This document shows, piece by piece, positions 1,064 to 9,167 of a DNA stretch of 64,000 nucleotides. Under the pieces are notes generated by a model that saw nothing but the letters and a program-made list of their open reading frames with translations, made no database searches and was not told the DNA's origin. A program made the translations under genes and the position numbers. Each line of letters starts with the position of its first letter. Position 1 is the first letter of the stretch. Origin of the DNA: Robertkochia solimangrovi (GTDB lineage: Bacteria > Bacteroidota > Bacteroidia > Flavobacteriales > Flavobacteriaceae). The DNA lies in the NCBI RefSeq assembly GCF_007279655.1, contig NZ_QKWN01000009.1, positions 186,001 to 250,000 on the forward strand. The letters run 5' to 3'.

Positions 1064-2905
1064 GTGAAGAAAATTCTATTTTTTCTACTGTTTTTAAGTA
1101 CAGGATTCCTCATTGCGCAGGAGGAATATGTCGTAAGTGATCACTACACTAAAAAAGAAGTAAAGATAAAAATGCGTGATGGTATTCTTTTACATACCAC
1201 TATCTATAGTCCGAAAGATACCAGTAAAGAATATCCTATTCTGATGCAGCGTACACCATACAGCTGTCAGCCATATGGCGAAGATCAGTTTCGTGCTACG
1301 ATTGGTCCGAATACAACCATGATGAAAGAGGGAATCATTGTAGTCTATCAGGATGTGAGAGGCCGATGGAATAGTGAAGGGGTATATGATAACATGCGGG
1401 CTTATATTCCCAATAAGAAAAGAAAACAGATCGATGAGGCTTCAGATACCTATGATTCTATCGACTGGCTTGTAAAGAATGTGAAGAATAACAATGGTAA
1501 AGTTGGGATCTGGGGAATTTCCTATCCTGGATTTTATTCCACCTATTCACTTCTGGATGCCCATCCGGCCCTTAAGGCAGTTTCGCCCCAGGCATGTATC
1601 GGAGATTTCTTCTTCGATGATTTTCATCATAACGGAGCGTATCTTCTGAGCTACTGGATCGCGACTGCATTGTTCGGATATGAAAAGGAACAGCCGGTAA
1701 CCTCTGGCTGGTATGAGTTTCCCGACATAGGAACACAGGATCAGTATCAGTTCTTTATCGAACATGAACCTTTAACCAAACTGGATACTTTTTACAAAGA
1801 GGATAACGTTTTCTGGGAGCAACTGAAAGATCATCCCAACTACGATGATTTCTGGCAGAAGCGCGGTATCATTCAGCATTTGGAAGATATAAAGCCTGCT
1901 ACGATGATCGTTGGAGGTTGGTTCGATGCGGAGGACCTGTATGGTCCATTGGAAACCTATAAGAATATAGAAGCCCGAAGCAAGAACTATAACACTATTG
2001 TGATGGGGCCCTGGAGTCATGGTGACTGGGCGCGTTTGAGAGAGCGTCAGGCAATTGGTAATGTCTATTTTGGAGACAATATTTCCCAATTCTTTCAGGA
2101 GAATATTGAGACAAAATTCTTTAATCACTTTTTGAAAGGATCCGGTGATGATAACTCCGGACTGCCGGAAGCCTACGTTTATGATACCGGACTGAATGAA
2201 TGGAAGACCTTTGAACAGTGGCCGCCTACAAATACAGAAAAAGAGATCTATGGCATGGGACTTCATGAGAATCTTGGGAAAGTTATGACTATGGAATACG
2301 GATACAGAGAATTTGTGAGCGACCCTAAGAAGCCGGTACCTTATTCTGAGGATATCAAAGTGGTTTTTACCCCCAGAAAATATATGACCGATGATCAGCG
2401 ATTCGCTGCCAGAAGACCGGATGTACTGATGTTTGAGACAGAGGTGTTGGAAGATGATGTTACGCTGGCTGGCGATATTCTTGCAAAATTGAAGGTTTCG
2501 ACCACCGGAACGGATGCCGATTGGATTGTGAAGGTTATCGATGTATGGCCGGCTGATTCAGAAGATTTTCCGGAAACCCAGGATCACCTTAAAATGAGCA
2601 ATTATCATATGATGGTCCGCAGTGAAGTTATGCGTGGAAGGTTCAGAAACAGCTTTGAAAAACCAGAAGCATTTGTCCCCGACGAGGTAACCGATGTGAA
2701 CATCAAGCTACAGGATGTTTTCCATACCTTCAAGAAAGGCCATAAGATTCAGGTTCAGGTACAAAGCACCTGGTTCCCGTATATCGATGTGAATCCGCAA
2801 ACCTTCGTCGATAATATTTTTAAAGCGGAGGAAAGTGATTTTCAAAAACAAACACACAAAGTGTATAATTCCTCGAAGATCGAATTCACAGTGTTGAAGA
2901 AGTAA
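1064..2905 (+). CDS. secreted CocE/NonD-family alpha/beta hydrolase (X-Pro dipeptidyl-peptidase S15-like)
   Basis: This is a predicted exported serine hydrolase of 613 residues. Residues 1-19 form a signal peptide ending in IAQ. The hydrolase fold shows the nucleophile elbow GISYPG (Ser153), and Asp288 in GGWFDAED and His319 in GPWSHGDW complete a triad laid out as in cocaine esterase, glutaryl-7-ACA acylase and alpha-amino acid ester hydrolases. The C-terminal part (about 400-610) fits the jelly-roll XPD_C domain of that family. The start is a GTG directly before the signal peptide. The substrate (peptide, ester or beta-lactam-like amide) cannot be told from the sequence. It may be co-transcribed with tilS, although the link is probably only positional. 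Confidence 0.87.
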   Translation: MKKILFFLLFLSTGFLIAQEEYVVSDHYTKKEVKIKMRDGILLHTTIYSPKDTSKEYPILMQRTPYSCQPYGEDQFRATIGPNTTMMKEGIIVVYQDVRGRWNSEGVYDNMRAYIPNKKRKQIDEASDTYDSIDWLVKNVKNNNGKVGIWGISYPGFYSTYSLLDAHPALKAVSPQACIGDFFFDDFHHNGAYLLSYWIATALFGYEKEQPVTSGWYEFPDIGTQDQYQFFIEHEPLTKLDTFYKEDNVFWEQLKDHPNYDDFWQKRGIIQHLEDIKPATMIVGGWFDAEDLYGPLETYKNIEARSKNYNTIVMGPWSHGDWARLRERQAIGNVYFGDNISQFFQENIETKFFNHFLKGSGDDNSGLPEAYVYDTGLNEWKTFEQWPPTNTEKEIYGMGLHENLGKVMTMEYGYREFVSDPKKPVPYSEDIKVVFTPRKYMTDDQRFAARRPDVLMFETEVLEDDVTLAGDILAKLKVSTTGTDADWIVKVIDVWPADSEDFPETQDHLKMSNYHMMVRSEVMRGRFRNSFEKPEAFVPDEVTDVNIKLQDVFHTFKKGHKIQVQVQSTWFPYIDVNPQTFVDNIFKAEESDFQKQTHKVYNSSKIEFTVLKK

Positions 2906-3056
2906 CGGAATAAGGGATTTAAAATCAAGAATTTGAGGAAGCATGAATAAGGGTTGAATAAAAAATCTTTGGAATAATGCGAAATCAAGGGAATTCTTTT
3001 TTTTAAATCCTTATTTTTACGGTTAATTTTTAATTAAATCCTTAACTAACTATTTT

Positions 3057-4709
3057 ATGAATTCAACATTCGGACTATGGGATTACGTGGTCTTCATATG
3101 TTATGCGGTACTGATTCTCAGTGTCGGACTATGGGTATCACGTGGTAAAAAAGGACATCAGCGTAATGCGGAAGACTATTTCCTGGCAAGCAAATCGTTA
3201 CCTTGGTGGGCGATCGGAGCATCTTTGATCGCAGCCAATATTTCCGCTGAACAATTTATCGGGATGTCCGGATCCGGATTTGCAGTAGGACTTGCGATCG
3301 CCTCCTATGAGTGGATGGCTGCACTTACTTTGATCATTGTCGGTAAGTATTTCTTACCGATCTTTATCGAAAAGGGTCTTTACACGATTCCGGAATTTAT
3401 TGAAAAACGTTATTCGACTAATCTGAAGACCATTCTTGCGGTTTTCTGGATCGCTCTGTACGTTTTTGTTAACCTTACTTCTGTACTTTATCTCGGAGCT
3501 CTTGCGATGGAAACCATCATGGGAATTCCTATGATCTATGGAGTTATCGGACTTGCATTGTTCGCGGCTGCCTATTCACTCTATGGTGGACTTTCTGCAG
3601 TAGCATGGACAGATGTAATTCAGGTAGTTTTCCTGGTACTGGGTGGACTTGTAACCACTTATCTGGCATTGAATACCGTTTCTGGTGGAGAAGGGGTGAT
3701 GAAAGGATTGGAAACGATCTTCGAAGCAGCTCCCGAACATTTTACCATGATTCTGAGCCATGATAATCCTGAATTTAAGAATCTTCCGGGTATCTGGGTT
3801 CTCATTGGAGGACTTTGGGTAGCGAATATCTATTATTGGGGATTCAACCAATATATCATTCAAAGAACCCTCGCGGCGAAATCTCTTAAAGAATCTCAGC
3901 GTGGAATTCTACTTGCTGCATTCCTGAAGCTTATCATTCCATTAGTAGTGGTAATTCCGGGTATCGCGGCCTATGTAATGGTCAATGATCCTGAAATTAT
4001 GGCTAAGCTTGGCGACCTCGGACTTTTCAACGAGCCATCTATGGCACAACCGGATAAGGCATATCCATGGTTGCTGCAATTCCTGCCTGCTGGATTGAAA
4101 GGTATCGCATTTGCAGCTCTTGCAGCCGCGATCGTTTCATCACTGGCATCTATGCTTAACTCGACTTCTACCATTTTTACAATGGATATCTATAAACAAT
4201 ATATCAATAAGAATGCAAGTGATATGACTACCGTTCAGGTTGGTCGTATCTCTGCTGCCGTAGCACTTGTCATCGCATGTATGGTAGCTCCGTTATTGTC
4301 AGGATTAGGACAGGCATTCCAGTATATTCAGGAATATACCGGTATTGTGAGTCCAGGTATTCTTGCAGTATTCCTGTTAGGTTTGTTCTGGAAAAAGACC
4401 ACCAACAAAGGAGCAATCTGGGGAGCGCTGGCTTCTATTCCGATCGCTATGTACTTCAAGGTAGCACCGAACGGATGGTCAGATAGCCCTATCTTTGTTG
4501 ATCTTCCTTTCTTGAATCAGATGGGAGTTACTGCGATCTTAACGATGATCATCATCGGGATCGTGAGTTTAAGTCAGAATAAAGGACAAGATGATCCAAA
4601 AGGAATTCCGCTTACCAAAAGCTTATTCAAGACCGGTCCGGTCTTCAATATTGGAGCCTTTGCAGTAATGATCATTTTGGTCGTACTTTATTCGCTATTC
4701 TGGAATTAA
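3057..4709 (+). CDS. sodium:solute symporter (SSS family, SGLT-like)
   Basis: This is an inner-membrane sodium-coupled transporter of 550 residues with about 14 hydrophobic segments. The family is recognised from the N-terminal region: AEDYFLASKSLPWWAIGASL, then NISAEQFIGMSGSGFAVGLA, and PEFIEKRYS in the loop after the third helix. This arrangement is closest to the vSGLT/sugar-transport branch, so a sugar or related polyol is the likely cargo, but substrate residues were not checked against a structure. The gene stands alone: 151 bases separate it from the hydrolase upstream, and a strong terminator follows. No regulator is adjacent. Confidence 0.88.
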   Translation: MNSTFGLWDYVVFICYAVLILSVGLWVSRGKKGHQRNAEDYFLASKSLPWWAIGASLIAANISAEQFIGMSGSGFAVGLAIASYEWMAALTLIIVGKYFLPIFIEKGLYTIPEFIEKRYSTNLKTILAVFWIALYVFVNLTSVLYLGALAMETIMGIPMIYGVIGLALFAAAYSLYGGLSAVAWTDVIQVVFLVLGGLVTTYLALNTVSGGEGVMKGLETIFEAAPEHFTMILSHDNPEFKNLPGIWVLIGGLWVANIYYWGFNQYIIQRTLAAKSLKESQRGILLAAFLKLIIPLVVVIPGIAAYVMVNDPEIMAKLGDLGLFNEPSMAQPDKAYPWLLQFLPAGLKGIAFAALAAAIVSSLASMLNSTSTIFTMDIYKQYINKNASDMTTVQVGRISAAVALVIACMVAPLLSGLGQAFQYIQEYTGIVSPGILAVFLLGLFWKKTTNKGAIWGALASIPIAMYFKVAPNGWSDSPIFVDLPFLNQMGVTAILTMIIIGIVSLSQNKGQDDPKGIPLTKSLFKTGPVFNIGAFAVMIILVVLYSLFWN

Positions 4710-4728: not shown

Positions 4729-4757
4729 AAAAAACCGGGTTCTCACCCGGTTTTTTT
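4729..4757 (+). terminator. intrinsic terminator after the symporter gene
   Basis: A 12-bp perfect stem (4729-4740 with 4745-4756) has a TCTC loop, a GC core CCGGGT/ACCCGG and seven T residues on the 3' side. It lies 20 bases after the symporter stop. The A-run on the 5' arm could also make it terminate the convergent gene that ends at 4802. Confidence 0.88.
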
Positions 4758-4801: not shown

Positions 4802-5170
4802 TTAATAGAACTTCACGCTCATCTTTCCCGTATTCAGGCCAATAAAATTCGTTAAAGGAAAATGTTCAACTGTTCTAAGTTTGTTGCCCTGTGTTTGATC
4901 ACTTGACGAATCAAGTTGAATAATCACCCGTAATGATAAATGTTTCATAGGAACCGACGTTTGAATTATAAAATCAAAGGGGACTATTTTTTTGGGACCT
5001 ACCTGAACCTGTTTCATTTCGAGCTCAGAAACTTTGGTAGCAGGAGCATCGAGCAATCCGGTATTCAGACATGAAATCTGAATACTGTCAGCGATCGTTT
5101 CCGGACAATTATCCGGAAGTATGATAGTTCCGGAACAAAGTACTTCATAATTTTGTTCAGTGGATTCCAT
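4802..5170 (-). CDS. small YbaY/YscW-like beta-sandwich protein, third gene of the astacin/ATP-grasp cluster
   Basis: This is a 122-residue protein without signal peptide or membrane segment. Its pattern (GTIILPDNCP near the start, LLDAPATKVSE in the middle, LSLRVIIQLD, then GNKLRTVEHFPLTN) resembles the YbaY/YscW domain found in lipoproteins and type III pilotins, which I infer from memory of the consensus. Here there is no lipobox, so it would be cytoplasmic. It overlaps the ATP-grasp gene by 14 bases and is therefore almost surely translated from the same mRNA. A role as binding partner, chaperone or scaffold for the modified product is possible but unproven. The gene is certain from coupling and frame; the family is moderately sure. 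Confidence 0.7.
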   Translation of the reverse strand: MESTEQNYEVLCSGTIILPDNCPETIADSIQISCLNTGLLDAPATKVSELEMKQVQVGPKKIVPFDFIIQTSVPMKHLSLRVIIQLDSSSDQTQGNKLRTVEHFPLTNFIGLNTGKMSVKFY

Positions 5171-6101
5171 TTGATCTTTCTATTAAAAGGTTTGCAACAG
5201 CCTCTGTAATGGGCAGCCCGGTATGTTGTTCTGCAAAAAGCCATTGCCCGGCAGGGTTCACTTCAAAGAAAACATACTTACCATCATTTGTTCTGCGCAT
5301 ATCGATGGCGCCATAGGCTAAATTTAAAGTTTTTTGTAGTAAAAAGATCTTCTTTTCGATTTCTTTTGGCAAGGCTTCAATACCTACCACTGATTCACCG
5401 ACGACCATTCTCATATCTGCCGGATAGGATGTTTTTCTGGCATCGATGGAGACTGGGAAGATCTTGTCCCCGACAACAGTGATCCGCAGATCTACACCTT
5501 CAATATATTCCTGAAATATAACTGGAGCAATAGATACGTTTTCAATAAATTGCAGATCTGTTTCTTTTAGAATTCTGGTTTCTCTCCAATCATTGATCGA
5601 AGCAAGAAAGGCTTTGTAAACCACATTGCCGATTCCGAGATCTCTTATGAATGCTCTGGCCTTCATCGGATCATTCGTAACCAGTGTTCTGGGAAGATTT
5701 AATCCGATCCTTCTTGCAACAGACCATTGATAGATCTTCCTGTGTGCAATTTCATCATCCTTTCGCGGATTTATCCAGGGGCATTGAAGTTTATCTAATA
5801 AACCATCAATGGCCTGGGAAGCCTCACTCTGAATAAATGCATTATCCTGTGGATTTGATCCATTAATTGTAAAAGGCCTGACTCTTCGCCACCAACCGGC
5901 CTTTATGGTTTCACAATGAATAGCTCTGTTATTTATCAGTAATGTGGATTCCTCTGTATCATCCGAAATACGCAATCCAAATCCAGTAGAGGAAGGAAAC
6001 TGTGACAGGTCAAATAACACAAATTCCTTCCCTTTCCTGAATAGTATTTCATGAACTTTTTCTGTGTGTTCCTCCTCTGGGAATGAAACAGTTAAGATCA
6101 T
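5157..6101 (-). CDS. MvdC/MvdD-type ATP-grasp ligase (graspetide maturase-like)
   Basis: This is a 314-residue RimK-type ATP-grasp enzyme. In characterised relatives (microviridin MvdC/MvdD, plesiocin ligase) it activates Asp/Glu side chains as acyl-phosphates and joins them to Thr/Ser hydroxyls or Lys amines of a ribosomal peptide. Visible features are the GWWRRVRP segment (69-76) found in this subfamily, Lys163 in VVYKAF, QEYIEGVDLR (197-206) for adenine binding, and FFEVNPAGQWLF (278-289) with the metal-binding Glu280 and Asn282. The active site looks intact. It lies 6 bases after the astacin gene and overlaps the next gene by 14 bases. No separate short precursor gene is visible, so the astacin C-terminal repeats are the likeliest substrate (inference). 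Confidence 0.85.
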   Translation of the reverse strand: MILTVSFPEEEHTEKVHEILFRKGKEFVLFDLSQFPSSTGFGLRISDDTEESTLLINNRAIHCETIKAGWWRRVRPFTINGSNPQDNAFIQSEASQAIDGLLDKLQCPWINPRKDDEIAHRKIYQWSVARRIGLNLPRTLVTNDPMKARAFIRDLGIGNVVYKAFLASINDWRETRILKETDLQFIENVSIAPVIFQEYIEGVDLRITVVGDKIFPVSIDARKTSYPADMRMVVGESVVGIEALPKEIEKKIFLLQKTLNLAYGAIDMRRTNDGKYVFFEVNPAGQWLFAEQHTGLPITEAVANLLIERSNGIH

Positions 6102-6107
6102 AACTAA

Positions 6108-7301
6108 TTACATTTGGTTTAATGATTGTAGTAGCTGCTTGTTAATCGCGTCAAGATCTGCGATCTGTTGATCGATCAAGAGTGCGATATTCATGAGTTC
6201 CTGCATTTTCGCAACATCATATCCTGTATTCTGCGGATCATTGAAATGATGAGGTGTCGAAAGAACAAAGGGTCGTCTTATATTGAAAAAACCGGGATCG
6301 ATACGCTCAACCAATGTTGGATTTGGATCAAGAACCGGATCTTTGGAAATCTCTTTCTTTGTATGAACCGGATCCTGAATAGGGTCTTTTCTGACTTCCT
6401 TAAAGGTAGGTTGATCTCCTATGGGATCCTTCGGAATTTCTTTTAGAGTGACTACCGGATCAGATATTGGGTCTTTCGTCATTTCTTTGATCGTAGGAAG
6501 ATTAATAAATGGATACATCGCATGTACAGCGTCGATATCACCTTGTGACAATCCGGAGCGTTGGCCTATAATCACACCGGCTGGTACGGGTTGCAGGGGT
6601 ACTATGGTGTTATTTCCATTCTTTGAAAAAGCATTCACAGGATAATGCATGATTGATCCGTAATCATACGTTCCATAATCATCTCCATCCGAAATATGCT
6701 GATTGAAATTATGCTCTCGACCTTCCAGAATATTATCCCATTCAATTCTTACAAAGGTATCGCGGTCCTCCCGACTTTGCTCATGCCACAAACCGATCGC
6801 ATGTCCGATTTCATGGATGGTGTTACCGGTAGAACAACCGGAACCGATGTTAATAGGTTGTTCACCCCCTTGCATTCCACAAAAGGAAGAACAGCCACTT
6901 GAAGTTTGAAATTTCACATAATTAGGATAGGTACTTGCATTGGTACTGTTTCTTTCAACAAACCTGATACGCGTATTTGCTTCCCAATGTGCAATTGCGT
7001 CCGTAATTCGGTTTTGGTTCGGAAATCCGGAAGCAATCGTATAGGGTACGACACCATTTGGCCATCGGTAACTACTTCCCGATATACCTACTCCTTCAAC
7101 TAATCCGGAATCAAATTCTGCCTGAATCTGATCCATACTTCCCAGTATAATATCACCTTCAAACATGGCCATACCATCAACATTTGCATACTGCAGACCC
7201 TTATTGGTAAAATTGGTTCCGGATACTAATTTGGTACCCGCAACTTTACCTGATCGTAATTCTCCGTGTTCGTTTTCAGAACTAGCTTTCTTTTTTGCCA
7301 T
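6108..7301 (-). CDS. astacin-family (M12A) zinc metalloprotease with C-terminal T-x-K-E-x-x-K-D-P repeats
   Basis: This is a 397-residue protein. Residues 1-75 form a pro-region without a signal peptide; FEGD (47-50) matches the astacin aspartate-switch motif FxGD, whose Asp caps the zinc. The catalytic domain (about 78-265) starts RWPNGVVPYTI and has the zinc site HEIGHAIGLWHE (163-174) and the Met-turn SIMHY (216-220). After it comes an unusual tail of four and a half repeats of 14-15 residues with Thr at 270, 285, 299, 314 and 329 (consensus T-x-K-E-x-x-K-D-P-[IV]-x-D), then a helical C-terminus (366-394). The tail resembles a multicore graspetide precursor, and an ATP-grasp ligase gene follows 6 bases downstream. 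Protease identity is firm; the substrate role of the tail is inference. Confidence 0.9.
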   Translation of the reverse strand: MAKKKASSENEHGELRSGKVAGTKLVSGTNFTNKGLQYANVDGMAMFEGDIILGSMDQIQAEFDSGLVEGVGISGSSYRWPNGVVPYTIASGFPNQNRITDAIAHWEANTRIRFVERNSTNASTYPNYVKFQTSSGCSSFCGMQGGEQPINIGSGCSTGNTIHEIGHAIGLWHEQSREDRDTFVRIEWDNILEGREHNFNQHISDGDDYGTYDYGSIMHYPVNAFSKNGNNTIVPLQPVPAGVIIGQRSGLSQGDIDAVHAMYPFINLPTIKEMTKDPISDPVVTLKEIPKDPIGDQPTFKEVRKDPIQDPVHTKKEISKDPVLDPNPTLVERIDPGFFNIRRPFVLSTPHHFNDPQNTGYDVAKMQELMNIALLIDQQIADLDAINKQLLQSLNQM

Positions 7302-7631
7302 TTTTAAACTTTTTTAATTATTGATAAAATTGATTTAACTATGAATAGTTAAGTCATCAAAGATTTGAAATGGAGGAATTACAGGTATTCGTTTAGAGAT
7401 AGTTTGATTGATTATATCGGCAAGGAGGATATTAAATGATTGATTTAAAGGTATTTAAAAATTTAGATTTAAGTAAGGGGAAAATCCCCTGAAATTTGGA
7501 ATAATTCAAAGAATACATTGTCAGAAAGCGAATAGTTTAAAATTTATGGAGTATAAAATCGAAATTGTTAACGAAGAGCTGAAATAGCCTGGCTTGGTAA
7601 TTTTACCAAATGGATGTCTTTTAAACTAGCG
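7302..7631. other. 330-base gene-free upstream region of the astacin cluster
   Basis: This is an AT-rich stretch between two genes that are both on the minus strand (comM ends at 7632, the astacin starts at 7301). It should hold the promoter of the astacin operon. The only clear structure is the GGGG/CCCC dyad at 7476-7490. A tiny plus-strand ORF (7436-7492) with a good AAGGAGG upstream was considered and not accepted. Confidence 0.5.
7476..7490. promoter_or_regulatory. GGGGA-AA-TCCCC dyad upstream of the astacin cluster
   Basis: AGGGGAAAATCCCCT has 6-bp perfect arms (AGGGGA/TCCCCT) around AAA. It lies about 175 bases upstream of the astacin start. Similar dyads occur at 9276-9292, 11739-11752, 20609-20624 and 24419-24434, each upstream of a gene, so an operator shared by an accessory regulon is plausible. 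Function is inferred only. Confidence 0.4.
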
Positions 7632-9167
7632 TTATCCCAGCCATCCTTCTCGATCTAAACTTCGGTATTGAATGGCTTCGCTGATATGAGTGCTTTGAAT
7701 CATTTCATTTCCCTCAAGATCTGCGATGGTTCGTGAAACTTTAAGGATTCGATCATAAGCCCTGGCGGAAAGATTGAGTCTTTCCATAGCGCTTTTCAAC
7801 ATTTGAAAGGATTCTTCTTTCAACGTACAATAGTTTCGTATCTGGCGGCTGCCCATCTGCGCATTGTAATGAATCCCGGAGATCTCTTGAAATCGTTTGG
7901 ATTGTATTTCACGGGCTTTGCTTACCCGCTCACGGATCGCGATACTGGATTCACCTTTCCGGTCATCCGATAACTTTTCAAATGGTACCGGGGAAACTTC
8001 GATATGGATGTCGATTCGATCCAGTAAAGGACCACTGATCTTACCCATATAGCGCTGCATTTCTGCCTGTGATGTAGCTACCGGGGCGGCAGGATCATTA
8101 AAATATCCTCCGGGACTAGGATTCATACTGGCAACCAGCATGAAACTGCTTGGATAGGTAACCGTGAATCGGGCTCGTGAAATGGTTACCTCCCGGTCTT
8201 CCAGAGGCTGTCGCATCACTTCCAGAACACCGCGTTTGAATTCGGGAAGTTCATCGAGAAATAGGACACCATTATGTGCCATGGAAATCTCGCCCGGTTG
8301 AGGATAGGAGCCTCCACCGACCAAGGCTACATCGGATATGGTATGATGTGGATTCCTGAAGGGGCGCTGTGTCATGAGTCCTTTGTCGCTCATCCTGCCG
8401 GCAACTGAATGGATCTTTGTTGTTTCCAGAGCCTCCTGTAATGACATGGGAGGAAGAATGGAAGGTAATCGCTTGGCGAGCATGGTTTTTCCAGAACCTG
8501 GCGGACCGATTAAAATAATGTTGTGTCCGCCGGCAGCAGCGATCTCCATGCATCGTTTTATCGTTTCTTGTCCGCGTACATCTGAAAAGTCAAATTCCGG
8601 GTGATCCAGTTTATGGTAGAATTCCCTATGTGTATCGATAACGACCTGCTTCAATGCCCCGTTTTCATTAAAGAAATCGATGACTTCGGTAATGTTATGA
8701 ATCCCGTAAACGGCTATAGAATCTACTACGGCGGCTTCTTCGGCATTTTGCACCGGTAATATGATCCCTTTAAAACCTTCTTCCTTTGCTTTGAGGGCAA
8801 TGGGTAAAGCACCGGTAATAGGTTGCAGACTTCCGTCGAGTGAAAGTTCCCCCATGATCATATAGTCGCCTATGGAAGTGCCGGTAATTTTTCCGGAAGC
8901 CATAAGTATACCCAGGGCGATAGGAAGGTCATACGCAGAACCTTCTTTTCTCAGGTCAGCCGGTGCCATATTGATGGTGATCTTCTTTCCGGGTATCCTG
9001 TATCCGTTATTCAGAAGGGCCGCTGCGATTCTATAATTGCTTTCCCGGATCGCATTGTCAGGTAAGCCTACCAGATGGTATCCGACTCCCTGGTCGATAT
9101 GTACTTCAATAGTAATGGTAGTGGCCTCGATGCCAAAAATGGCACTGCCGTAGATCTTTGAGAGCAT
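7632..9167 (-). CDS. comM: YifB/ComM family Mg-chelatase-like AAA+ ATPase
   Basis: This is a 511-residue protein of the ComM (YifB) family, a hexameric helicase that drives branch migration when transformed DNA is integrated in naturally competent bacteria; many non-competent bacteria keep it too. The N-terminal Lon-like ChlI domain (1-185) is followed by the AAA+ module with Walker A GPPGSGKT (221-228), Walker B VLFLDE (about 298-303) and the C-terminal Mg_chelatase_C domain with [20 protein letters not shown]. Length is normal. A 20-bp palindromic repeat sits 22 bases upstream of the start codon, in its promoter region. The identity is sure; whether this organism is competent cannot be seen here. 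Confidence 0.93.

Follow-up and report, generated by a model that had tools for sequence, protein, structure and literature searches.

A graspetide-synthetase-like ligase and its probable substrate, a C-terminal tail carried by proteases of at least four families

Introduction

The closest described relatives of the system reported here are the graspetides, a class of ribosomally synthesised and post-translationally modified peptides (RiPPs). The system itself is a three-gene cassette of Robertkochia solimangrovi in which an ATP-grasp ligase of the MvdC/MvdD type is encoded between an astacin metalloprotease with a repeat-rich tail and a small beta-sandwich protein; it lies in a stretch of 64,000 nucleotides (contig NZ_QKWN01000009.1, positions 186,001-250,000), henceforth the window. 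As of 2022, all characterised graspetides were protease inhibitors, and threonine (T), serine (S) and lysine (K) were the three nucleophiles of microviridin linkages, according to the relevant sections of PMC8939145 (Makarova 2022). These sections also link ligase branches 7 and 8 to peptidases of several unrelated families, and branch 7 often to a YscW homologue as well; they predict no precursor for branch 7 and suggest that peptides are supplied from other proteins, which the peptidases cut. In the main text of PMC13097080 (Carter 2026), the ligases of group 32 have diverse neighbouring proteases, proposed as maturation or resistance proteins. Finally, the passages on the graspetide synthetase ThfB report that the enzyme can still be directed by a leader relocated to the C-terminus, with RPFG as the key element (PMC13003496), and that it cyclises sequences of up to 258 amino acids (aa; PMC12291112).

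The original prediction from the window sequence could name no described graspetide with this layout. A correction is due here: the combination of ligase, peptidase and YscW homologue is in print and fits branch 7 of PMC8939145, while the protease as precursor does not appear in its text as far as consulted. A literature search over titles and the starts of abstracts, scarcely covering subscription journals, returned no protease-borne graspetide precursor, and a search of the same scope found nothing joining YbaY and astacin. In the portions consulted, PMC10885120 has nothing on fused precursors, and PMC8939145 and PMC13097080 nowhere call a protease the precursor. The association of ligase and peptidase is thus already published, and the proposal that the protease tail would be the ligase's substrate is new as far as that search went. 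The ligase clade described below is very probably branch 7, an equation drawn from the text of PMC8939145. We found that the arrangement is real and general, and we consider it probable that the graspetide-synthetase-like ligase acts on the C-terminal tail of the adjacent protease, the two forming a module found on at least four protease families.

The cassette in the window

Three packed genes on the minus strand make up the cassette:

6108..7301, minus strand: astacin (M12A) metalloprotease of 397 aa with repeat tail and C-terminal PF (proline-phenylalanine) segment, the putative ligase substrate (Pfam, NCBIfam)
5157..6101, minus strand: MvdC/MvdD-type ATP-grasp ligase of 314 aa, the putative tail cross-linking enzyme (Pfam, NCBIfam, solved structures)
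4802..5170, minus strand: YbaY/YscW-like small beta-sandwich protein of 122 aa, a putative protease inhibitor or chaperone (profile, model)

By the coordinates of the open reading frames (ORFs), astacin and ligase are separated by 6 bases and the ligase overlaps the small gene by 14 bases, as had been predicted. The absence of a short precursor gene was likewise borne out, as a search around the window ligase turned up, within the distance covered, no ORF of 50-200 aa whose N-terminus fits a leader pattern. The astacin divides into the following parts:

7086..7301, minus strand: propeptide-like N-terminal region, residues 1-72, with FEGD at residues 47-50 (7152-7163)
6510..7085, minus strand: astacin catalytic domain, residues 73-264, with the HEIGHAIGLWHEQSR site intact (6771-6815)
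6276..6494, minus strand: repeat region, residues 270-342, putative core, with four exact repeats and one degenerate repeat
6468-6494, 6423-6449, 6381-6407 and 6336-6362, minus strand: exact T-x-K-E-x-x-K-D-P copies, found by pattern
6294-6317, minus strand: degenerate fifth repeat, found by pattern
6246..6272, minus strand: PFVLSTPHH, residues 344-352, putative C-terminal recognition (follower) motif, from clade conservation
6111..6245, minus strand: C-terminal segment beyond the motif, with a helix at residues 363-396 in a low-confidence model

The repeats, which occupy residues 270-336, hold up as predicted: shuffling the 73-residue tail 100000 times never produced two or more copies. The protein matches the Pfam Astacin model over residues 79-263 (E 1.6e-52) and exceeds the cut-off of the NCBIfam LegP family (NF045530; score 321.6, cut-off 300), a name that denotes a family and not a function. 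At its N-terminus the highest 15-residue Kyte-Doolittle mean in residues 1-60 is 0.86, with no obvious signal peptide as judged from hydropathy only, no signal-peptide predictor being used. FEGDI is identical in all four astacins of the clade, and the alignment of the window astacin to crayfish proastacin 3lq0 begins at residue 46; FEGD is a putative aspartate switch.

The assignment of the ligase to the MvdC/MvdD kind was upheld by its match to the MvdD pre-ATP-grasp domain PF21068 (5.6e-9, above cut-off; the Pfam RimK model gives 1.4e-5) and by its nearest solved structures by sequence, 5ig9 (E 3.9e-31) and 5ig8 (2.9e-29). Both are microviridin-type ligases. Matches to the NCBIfam models GRASP_SAV_5884, MvdC and MvdD (TIGR04187, TIGR04185, TIGR04184) all fall below the curated cut-offs.

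The tail across the clade

We found a tail with a PF segment at the end of the gene immediately upstream of the ligase in all 17 loci of the ligase clade, window included (the motif script matched 15 of the 17; L016 and L042, whose ligase ORFs are extended upstream, were missed by it and their tails were seen separately). Whether these ligases always adjoin an astacin with a repeat tail, as the original prediction would have it, therefore has a divided answer: the tail is general, and the astacin is replaced by other enzymes, with four protease families and one tail without a protease. Specifically, Pfam assigns an M12A domain to the window, L008, L011 and L013, an M43 domain to L009, L010, L019, L042 and L100, an S1 domain to L014 and an S8 domain to L020. 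Four further loci without a Pfam scan (L012, L016, L017 and L018) align with L014 over the protease part, where just 40 of 306 columns vary among the five; the L018 protease matches solved glutamyl endopeptidases, with E 3e-9 for the S1 member against 1p3c. The contig of L015 starts inside the tail gene, so that the protease domain lies outside the sequence. L125 encodes a protease-free protein of 171 aa, in which IKFxDD-type repeats are followed by PFVLANPHHSMDW, and by eye no protease gene adjoins it on its 5.8-kb contig. The M43, S1 and S8 proteases and this free-standing tail rule out the astacin as an essential element.

The tails share two features. One is the PF segment, present in 17 of 17 and usually PFVL[SA]TPHH, with TPHH exact in 14 of 17 and NPHH in L125. 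The other is a set of repeats rich in T/S/K and in aspartate or glutamate (D/E), which precede the segment in nearly all clade tails. In 44 LKF-type repeats from six loci, T (27), S (14) and K (3) are the only residues that occur two places before K; the pattern used leaves this position free but requires K/R plus acids, and repeats outside it are not counted. In the LKF and window repeats, the nucleophiles (T/S/K) and the acceptors (D/E) thus stand in register, and doubtfully so in L020. In the six Marivita-type tails, variation touches 4 of 41 columns with consensus D or T and 47 of 118 of the remaining ones (permutation p 0.00015). Five of these rows are full-length, and in their protease part the variable columns number 5 of 22 for D and 3 of 22 for T, the overall figure being the 40 of 306 given above. 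Because these rows are closely related, the constancy is supporting rather than decisive.

The tail also appears to move independently of the protease. The astacin part of L011 is 56-64% identical to the other clade astacins, yet its repeats are LKFRDD, and its C-terminal segment has 42-48% identity to five M43 tails as against 26-37% to the three other astacin tails; by these comparisons the L011 astacin carries an M43-type tail, consistent with the tail being a module. A tail profile, searched with E up to 0.01, gave a single match in each of 15 genomes or records, always the ligase-adjacent gene. Twelve of the 15 segments went into the profile, so that their match is built in, leaving L015, L017 and L042, of which L042 is the independent match, at 2.6e-17; the genomes include metagenome-assembled genomes (MAGs), which may be incomplete, and for L042 one replicon only was searched.

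Two side observations concern the serine protease loci. A stretch of the form 'GLDK...DRIPDR' before the PF segment is common to the S8 protein (L020, 4192-5997) and the S1 proteins of Marivita, with 'GLDKPP' in some M43 proteins; it is possibly a further core or hinge. In L018 (Marivita cryptomonadis), directly upstream of the S1 tail protease lies a gene (1697-4255, plus strand) for an 852-aa protein, in which a lipase-like part and a second trypsin-like part can be made out by eye.

The clade was assembled from several searches. A genome-collection scan gave 14 ligase loci, 13 of them close (39-51% identity over the alignment), in Acidobacteriota, Planctomycetota, Pseudomonadota, Verrucomicrobiota and Bacteroidota, the close pseudomonadotal loci being four from Marivita and two from alphaproteobacterial MAGs. 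A plasmid-collection search added L042, on a 3.2-Mb replicon of Burkholderia stagnalis; the other 29 of the 30 plasmid records reached, among the matches listed, at most 31.1% identity. Ligase-profile surveys added L100, from the phylum of a Phycisphaerales genome, and L125, from the order of a Saprospiraceae genome. The clade is rare: draws of 395, 297, 246, 240, 194, 109, 99, 61 and 45 genomes, partly overlapping and with differing E limits, gave L100 and L125 as the only new members, genomes already known as carriers not being counted. In the family-level survey 6 of 299 genomes had a match, including the window's own, and all others were distant ligases; among viral contigs, none of 53 pattern matches was confirmed as a relative. 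Some neighbourhood gene calls are mechanical and include overlapping frames.

Ligases outside the clade

As an outgroup we took 29 distant-ligase loci, comprising all further places of four surveys and 7 of the 12 further genomes of a fifth. By a loose pattern, a short ORF near the ligase carries a PF-type leader at its N-terminus in 12 of the 29 (for example KPFFANFLE, KPFGIEFLEE and EPFLVRYSTP), and a genuine C-terminal PF tail occurs in one, L091; a second C-terminal match, in L117, lies in a membrane protein and was judged to be chance. In the clade the proportions are reversed: the motif is C-terminal in 17 of 17 loci, and the usual graspetide form, a motif in the N-terminal leader of a short precursor, was matched by a single short ORF (the small upstream gene of L125, 1/17), which we judged to be chance.

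In a tree of 28 ligases, L091 joins the clade at 95/87 and L102 at 99/98. The tail protein of L091, which came from the Acidobacteria search, is encoded at 6953-8080 (minus strand) beside a ligase just outside the clade; it has 375 aa, mostly DPK-type repeats, ends in GPFILTTNWPY and contains no protease. Upstream of the L102 ligase (6846-7811, minus strand; 324 bits), likewise just outside the clade, lies a 1505-aa protein that is serine/threonine-kinase-like by eye.

Partner genes and tail-less relatives

The original prediction had counted the small third gene as part of the RiPP system, and this probably does not hold. The window protein has no match up to E 1 in Pfam or NCBIfam. Its AlphaFold model is a beta sandwich with a predicted local distance difference test score (pLDDT) of 65.5, whose top two solved matches are chains of the type II secretion pilotin 5wec (E 3.1e-3 and 5.4e-3); no match was as good as 0.001, unrelated folds appear from rank 3, and the type III secretin pilot 2yjl stands at rank 15 (E 0.075). 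A profile built from the protein and its three clade relatives has a weak match (E 1.8e-5) to a gene that bears the annotation 'YbaY family lipoprotein'. Such a YbaY-like gene stands beside the ligase in 4 of 4 clade astacin loci (same strand in the window and L008, convergent in L011 and L013), and in 5 of 5 M43 loci the protease has upstream of it a lipocalin-like gene, which matches Pfam Lipocalin_4 only below cut-off; neither profile matched at the S1 or S8 clade loci.

We compared these loci with nine tail-less plasmid relatives (four astacins and five M43 proteins, chosen from 20 and 10 listed records, with Legionella and the clade's own B. stagnalis omitted on purpose). PF tail and ligase are absent from 9 of 9 (6.6 to 6.9 kb each); a PFIV string in the astacin relative L131 lies inside its C-terminal half and not at a tail. 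The partner genes recur among them: a YbaY gene (annotated YbaY family, E 1.8e-5) lies upstream of 1 of 4 tail-less astacins, that of Pararhizobium, the closest at 44%, and a lipocalin-like gene directly downstream of 2 of 5 tail-less M43 relatives (Rhizobium and Azospirillum). Since YbaY-like genes go with astacins and lipocalin-like genes with M43 proteins, also where there is no ligase, the partner follows the protease, and by this distribution it probably belongs to the protease and not to the peptide unit. We accordingly rejected the YbaY-like gene as a peptide-tailoring partner of the ligase, as it occurs beside an astacin with neither ligase nor tail, and M43 proteins have the lipocalin-like gene instead.

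Three features near these partner genes stand apart. The lipocalin-like genes beside tail-less M43 proteins (L133, 4099-4434; L135, 3960-4295) suggest a possible undescribed protease-partner pair. On Pararhizobium gei plasmid p2 (L128, 2459-6714), the tail-less astacin has the YbaY lipoprotein gene on one side and, on the other, a caspase-like protein in which the motifs YSGHG and DAC were spotted by eye. A phospholipase D-like gene comes next, and the group resembles an effector or conflict cassette. In the window, one further feature lies just downstream of the small gene, found in a scan in which the number of terminator-like hairpins was not significant (2 found, shuffle mean 2.4):

4729..4756, no strand: symmetric terminator-like hairpin between the cassette and the convergent neighbour gene

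Discussion

The clade-wide tail with its PF segment, the interchange of proteases, the free-standing tail and partners that track the protease, all read from sequence comparison, fit a ligase that works on the tail. That the tail is its likely substrate, as originally predicted, is supported by the adjacency in 17 of 17 loci and by the tail's independence of the astacin fold. We infer recognition, cross-linking and the residues joined as follows. The ligase would dock on the C-terminal PF segment (PFVLSTPHH in the window), which is leader-like but comes after the core, and would join T/S/K to D/E side chains within the repeats by ATP-dependent ester or amide bonds. The pair of tail and ligase would form a module attached to M12A, M43, S1 and S8 proteases, the two metalloprotease families bringing their own partner gene. 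Docking from the C-terminus and cyclisation of a long substrate are plausible because of the ThfB precedents, as described in the relevant passages of PMC13003496 and PMC12291112.

Several observations weigh against this account. The AlphaFold model of the full-length astacin is poor (pLDDT 46). L008 (GPSR) and L013 (TVHQ) depart from TPHH, the S8 protein of L020 lacks a clear repeat array, and the repeat types differ by subgroup (T-x-K-E-x-x-K-D, LKFxDD, T-N-x-L-x-D, T-x-x-T-x-D), with no single ring pattern evident. In the ligase tree the 17 clade members group at 92/91, a moderate and unstarred value, and forcing the four astacin ligases together is not rejected (approximately unbiased test, p 0.319), meaning that dispersal is not shown by the tree. 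Outside the clade, the pattern search saw neither kind of precursor in 16 of 29 loci, and L102 has no recognisable precursor. Two queries for an exporter of the peptidase-containing ABC transporter (PCAT) kind gave no strong match in the 3.9 to 20 kb examined per clade locus. As for what a modified tail would do, the same tail type on M43 and astacin domains and alone counts against a protective role in cis, and the metalloproteases, which already have a dedicated small partner, would have less need of a cis latch.

The most likely role, which we put somewhat short of an even chance, is that the cross-linked tail stays attached, rigid and proteolysis-resistant, and restrains or protects its protease. 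A more specific and tentative version is a protease-control module, in which the ligase would turn the tail of a protease inside the cell into a series of small cross-linked rings acting as a cis graspetide inhibitor or latch, the tail-ligase pair having moved among astacin, pappalysin-like, glutamyl-endopeptidase-like and subtilisin-like enzymes and guided by a natural C-terminal leader. Glutamyl endopeptidases cut after acidic residues, and astacins tend to cut before them; as the S1 member is glutamyl-endopeptidase-like, the acidic residues that it would cut are those that cross-links would hide.

A serious rival, next in likelihood, is another outcome of the same reading of the tail: once the ligase has cross-linked it, the attached protease would cut the tail between repeats and so set free several cross-linked peptides as the product. 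The multicore-like repeats and the free-standing L125 tail would suit such a self-processing precursor, several unrelated proteases could each act as maturation enzyme, and maturation or resistance is what the main text of PMC13097080 proposes for proteases near group 32 and others. However, the lack of a PCAT-type exporter in the clade stretches argues against an exported peptide product. In the 64-kb window the PCAT queries found nothing at E 1e-5, and in five Marivita-type loci they reached 86-98 bits against opposite-strand proteins of about 500 aa, in our view ordinary ABC ATPases (scores for the PCATs of L092, L093 and L096 are 1118-1667 bits). The clade proteases also have no clear hydrophobic signal segment (15-residue hydropathy means of at most 1.47 in residues 1-60, no predictor being used), and the stand-alone L125 tail has, by eye, no protease beside it on its 5.8-kb contig.

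That the precursors lie elsewhere, the protease cutting other cell proteins, the ligase modifying the resulting peptides and the tail serving as a docking or linker segment, is the suggestion made for branches 7 and 8 in the sections of PMC8939145 cited above, and the proteases do keep recognisable catalytic motifs and domains. We consider it improbable, given that T/S/K and D/E stand in register in a tail with a PF segment, that the D/T sites are constant and that the L125 tail lacks a protease part. Still less probable is a RimK-like activity that adds amino acids to the tail with no cross-linking: the ligase does match RimK-type ATP-grasp enzymes, but its best family and structure matches are microviridin-type ligases, and nucleophile and acid positions are paired in the repeats. 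An ordinary low-complexity linker or anchoring stalk with a coincidental ligase neighbour, which a proline- and acid-rich tail without predicted structure (in a poor model) might suggest, is hardly credible in view of adjacency in 17 of 17 loci over unrelated proteases versus 1 genuine case in 29 outgroup loci, and of 9 of 9 plasmid relatives that lack tail and ligase together.

The proposal that the ligase modifies the protease tail offers a possible answer to a stated gap, namely a peptidase-linked branch of graspetide-type ligases with no predicted precursor. If it is true, a protease and the precursor of a peptide natural product share one protein, RiPP chemistry modifies enzyme tails, and C-terminal leaders occur naturally; a portable tail-ligase pair might then cross-link chosen proteins.

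Comparison with known systems

LegP-type astacins and tail-less M12A and M43 proteases have the same catalytic domains as the clade, and some have the same partner genes; unlike the clade proteins, they stop a short way past the catalytic domain or run on with no repeat-PF tail, and no ligase lies in the stretches examined. Group 32, compared by the main text of PMC13097080 only, shares diverse neighbouring proteases with the clade. Branch 7, as described in the text of PMC8939145, resembles it in its unrelated peptidases, its YscW homologue and the lack of a separate precursor, whereas the YbaY/YscW-like gene of the clade is confined to the four astacin loci; the precursor of branch 7 is thought there to lie elsewhere, while we propose the peptidase itself.

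Graspetides such as microviridin, plesiocin and fuscimiditide share with the clade an MvdC/D-type ligase and repeats of T/S/K with D/E, and the P-F motif of the clade resembles the graspetide leader motifs PFFARFL and RPFG. They differ in that the clade motif is C-terminal to the core and the core is joined to a protease whose motifs are intact (397-601 aa), with no PCAT exporter found nearby. The closest parallel to that order is the engineered ThfA of PMC13003496, which has a C-terminal recognition segment with a PF core, as the clade does; it is called unnatural in the passage that describes it, and in the clade the same arrangement is apparently natural.

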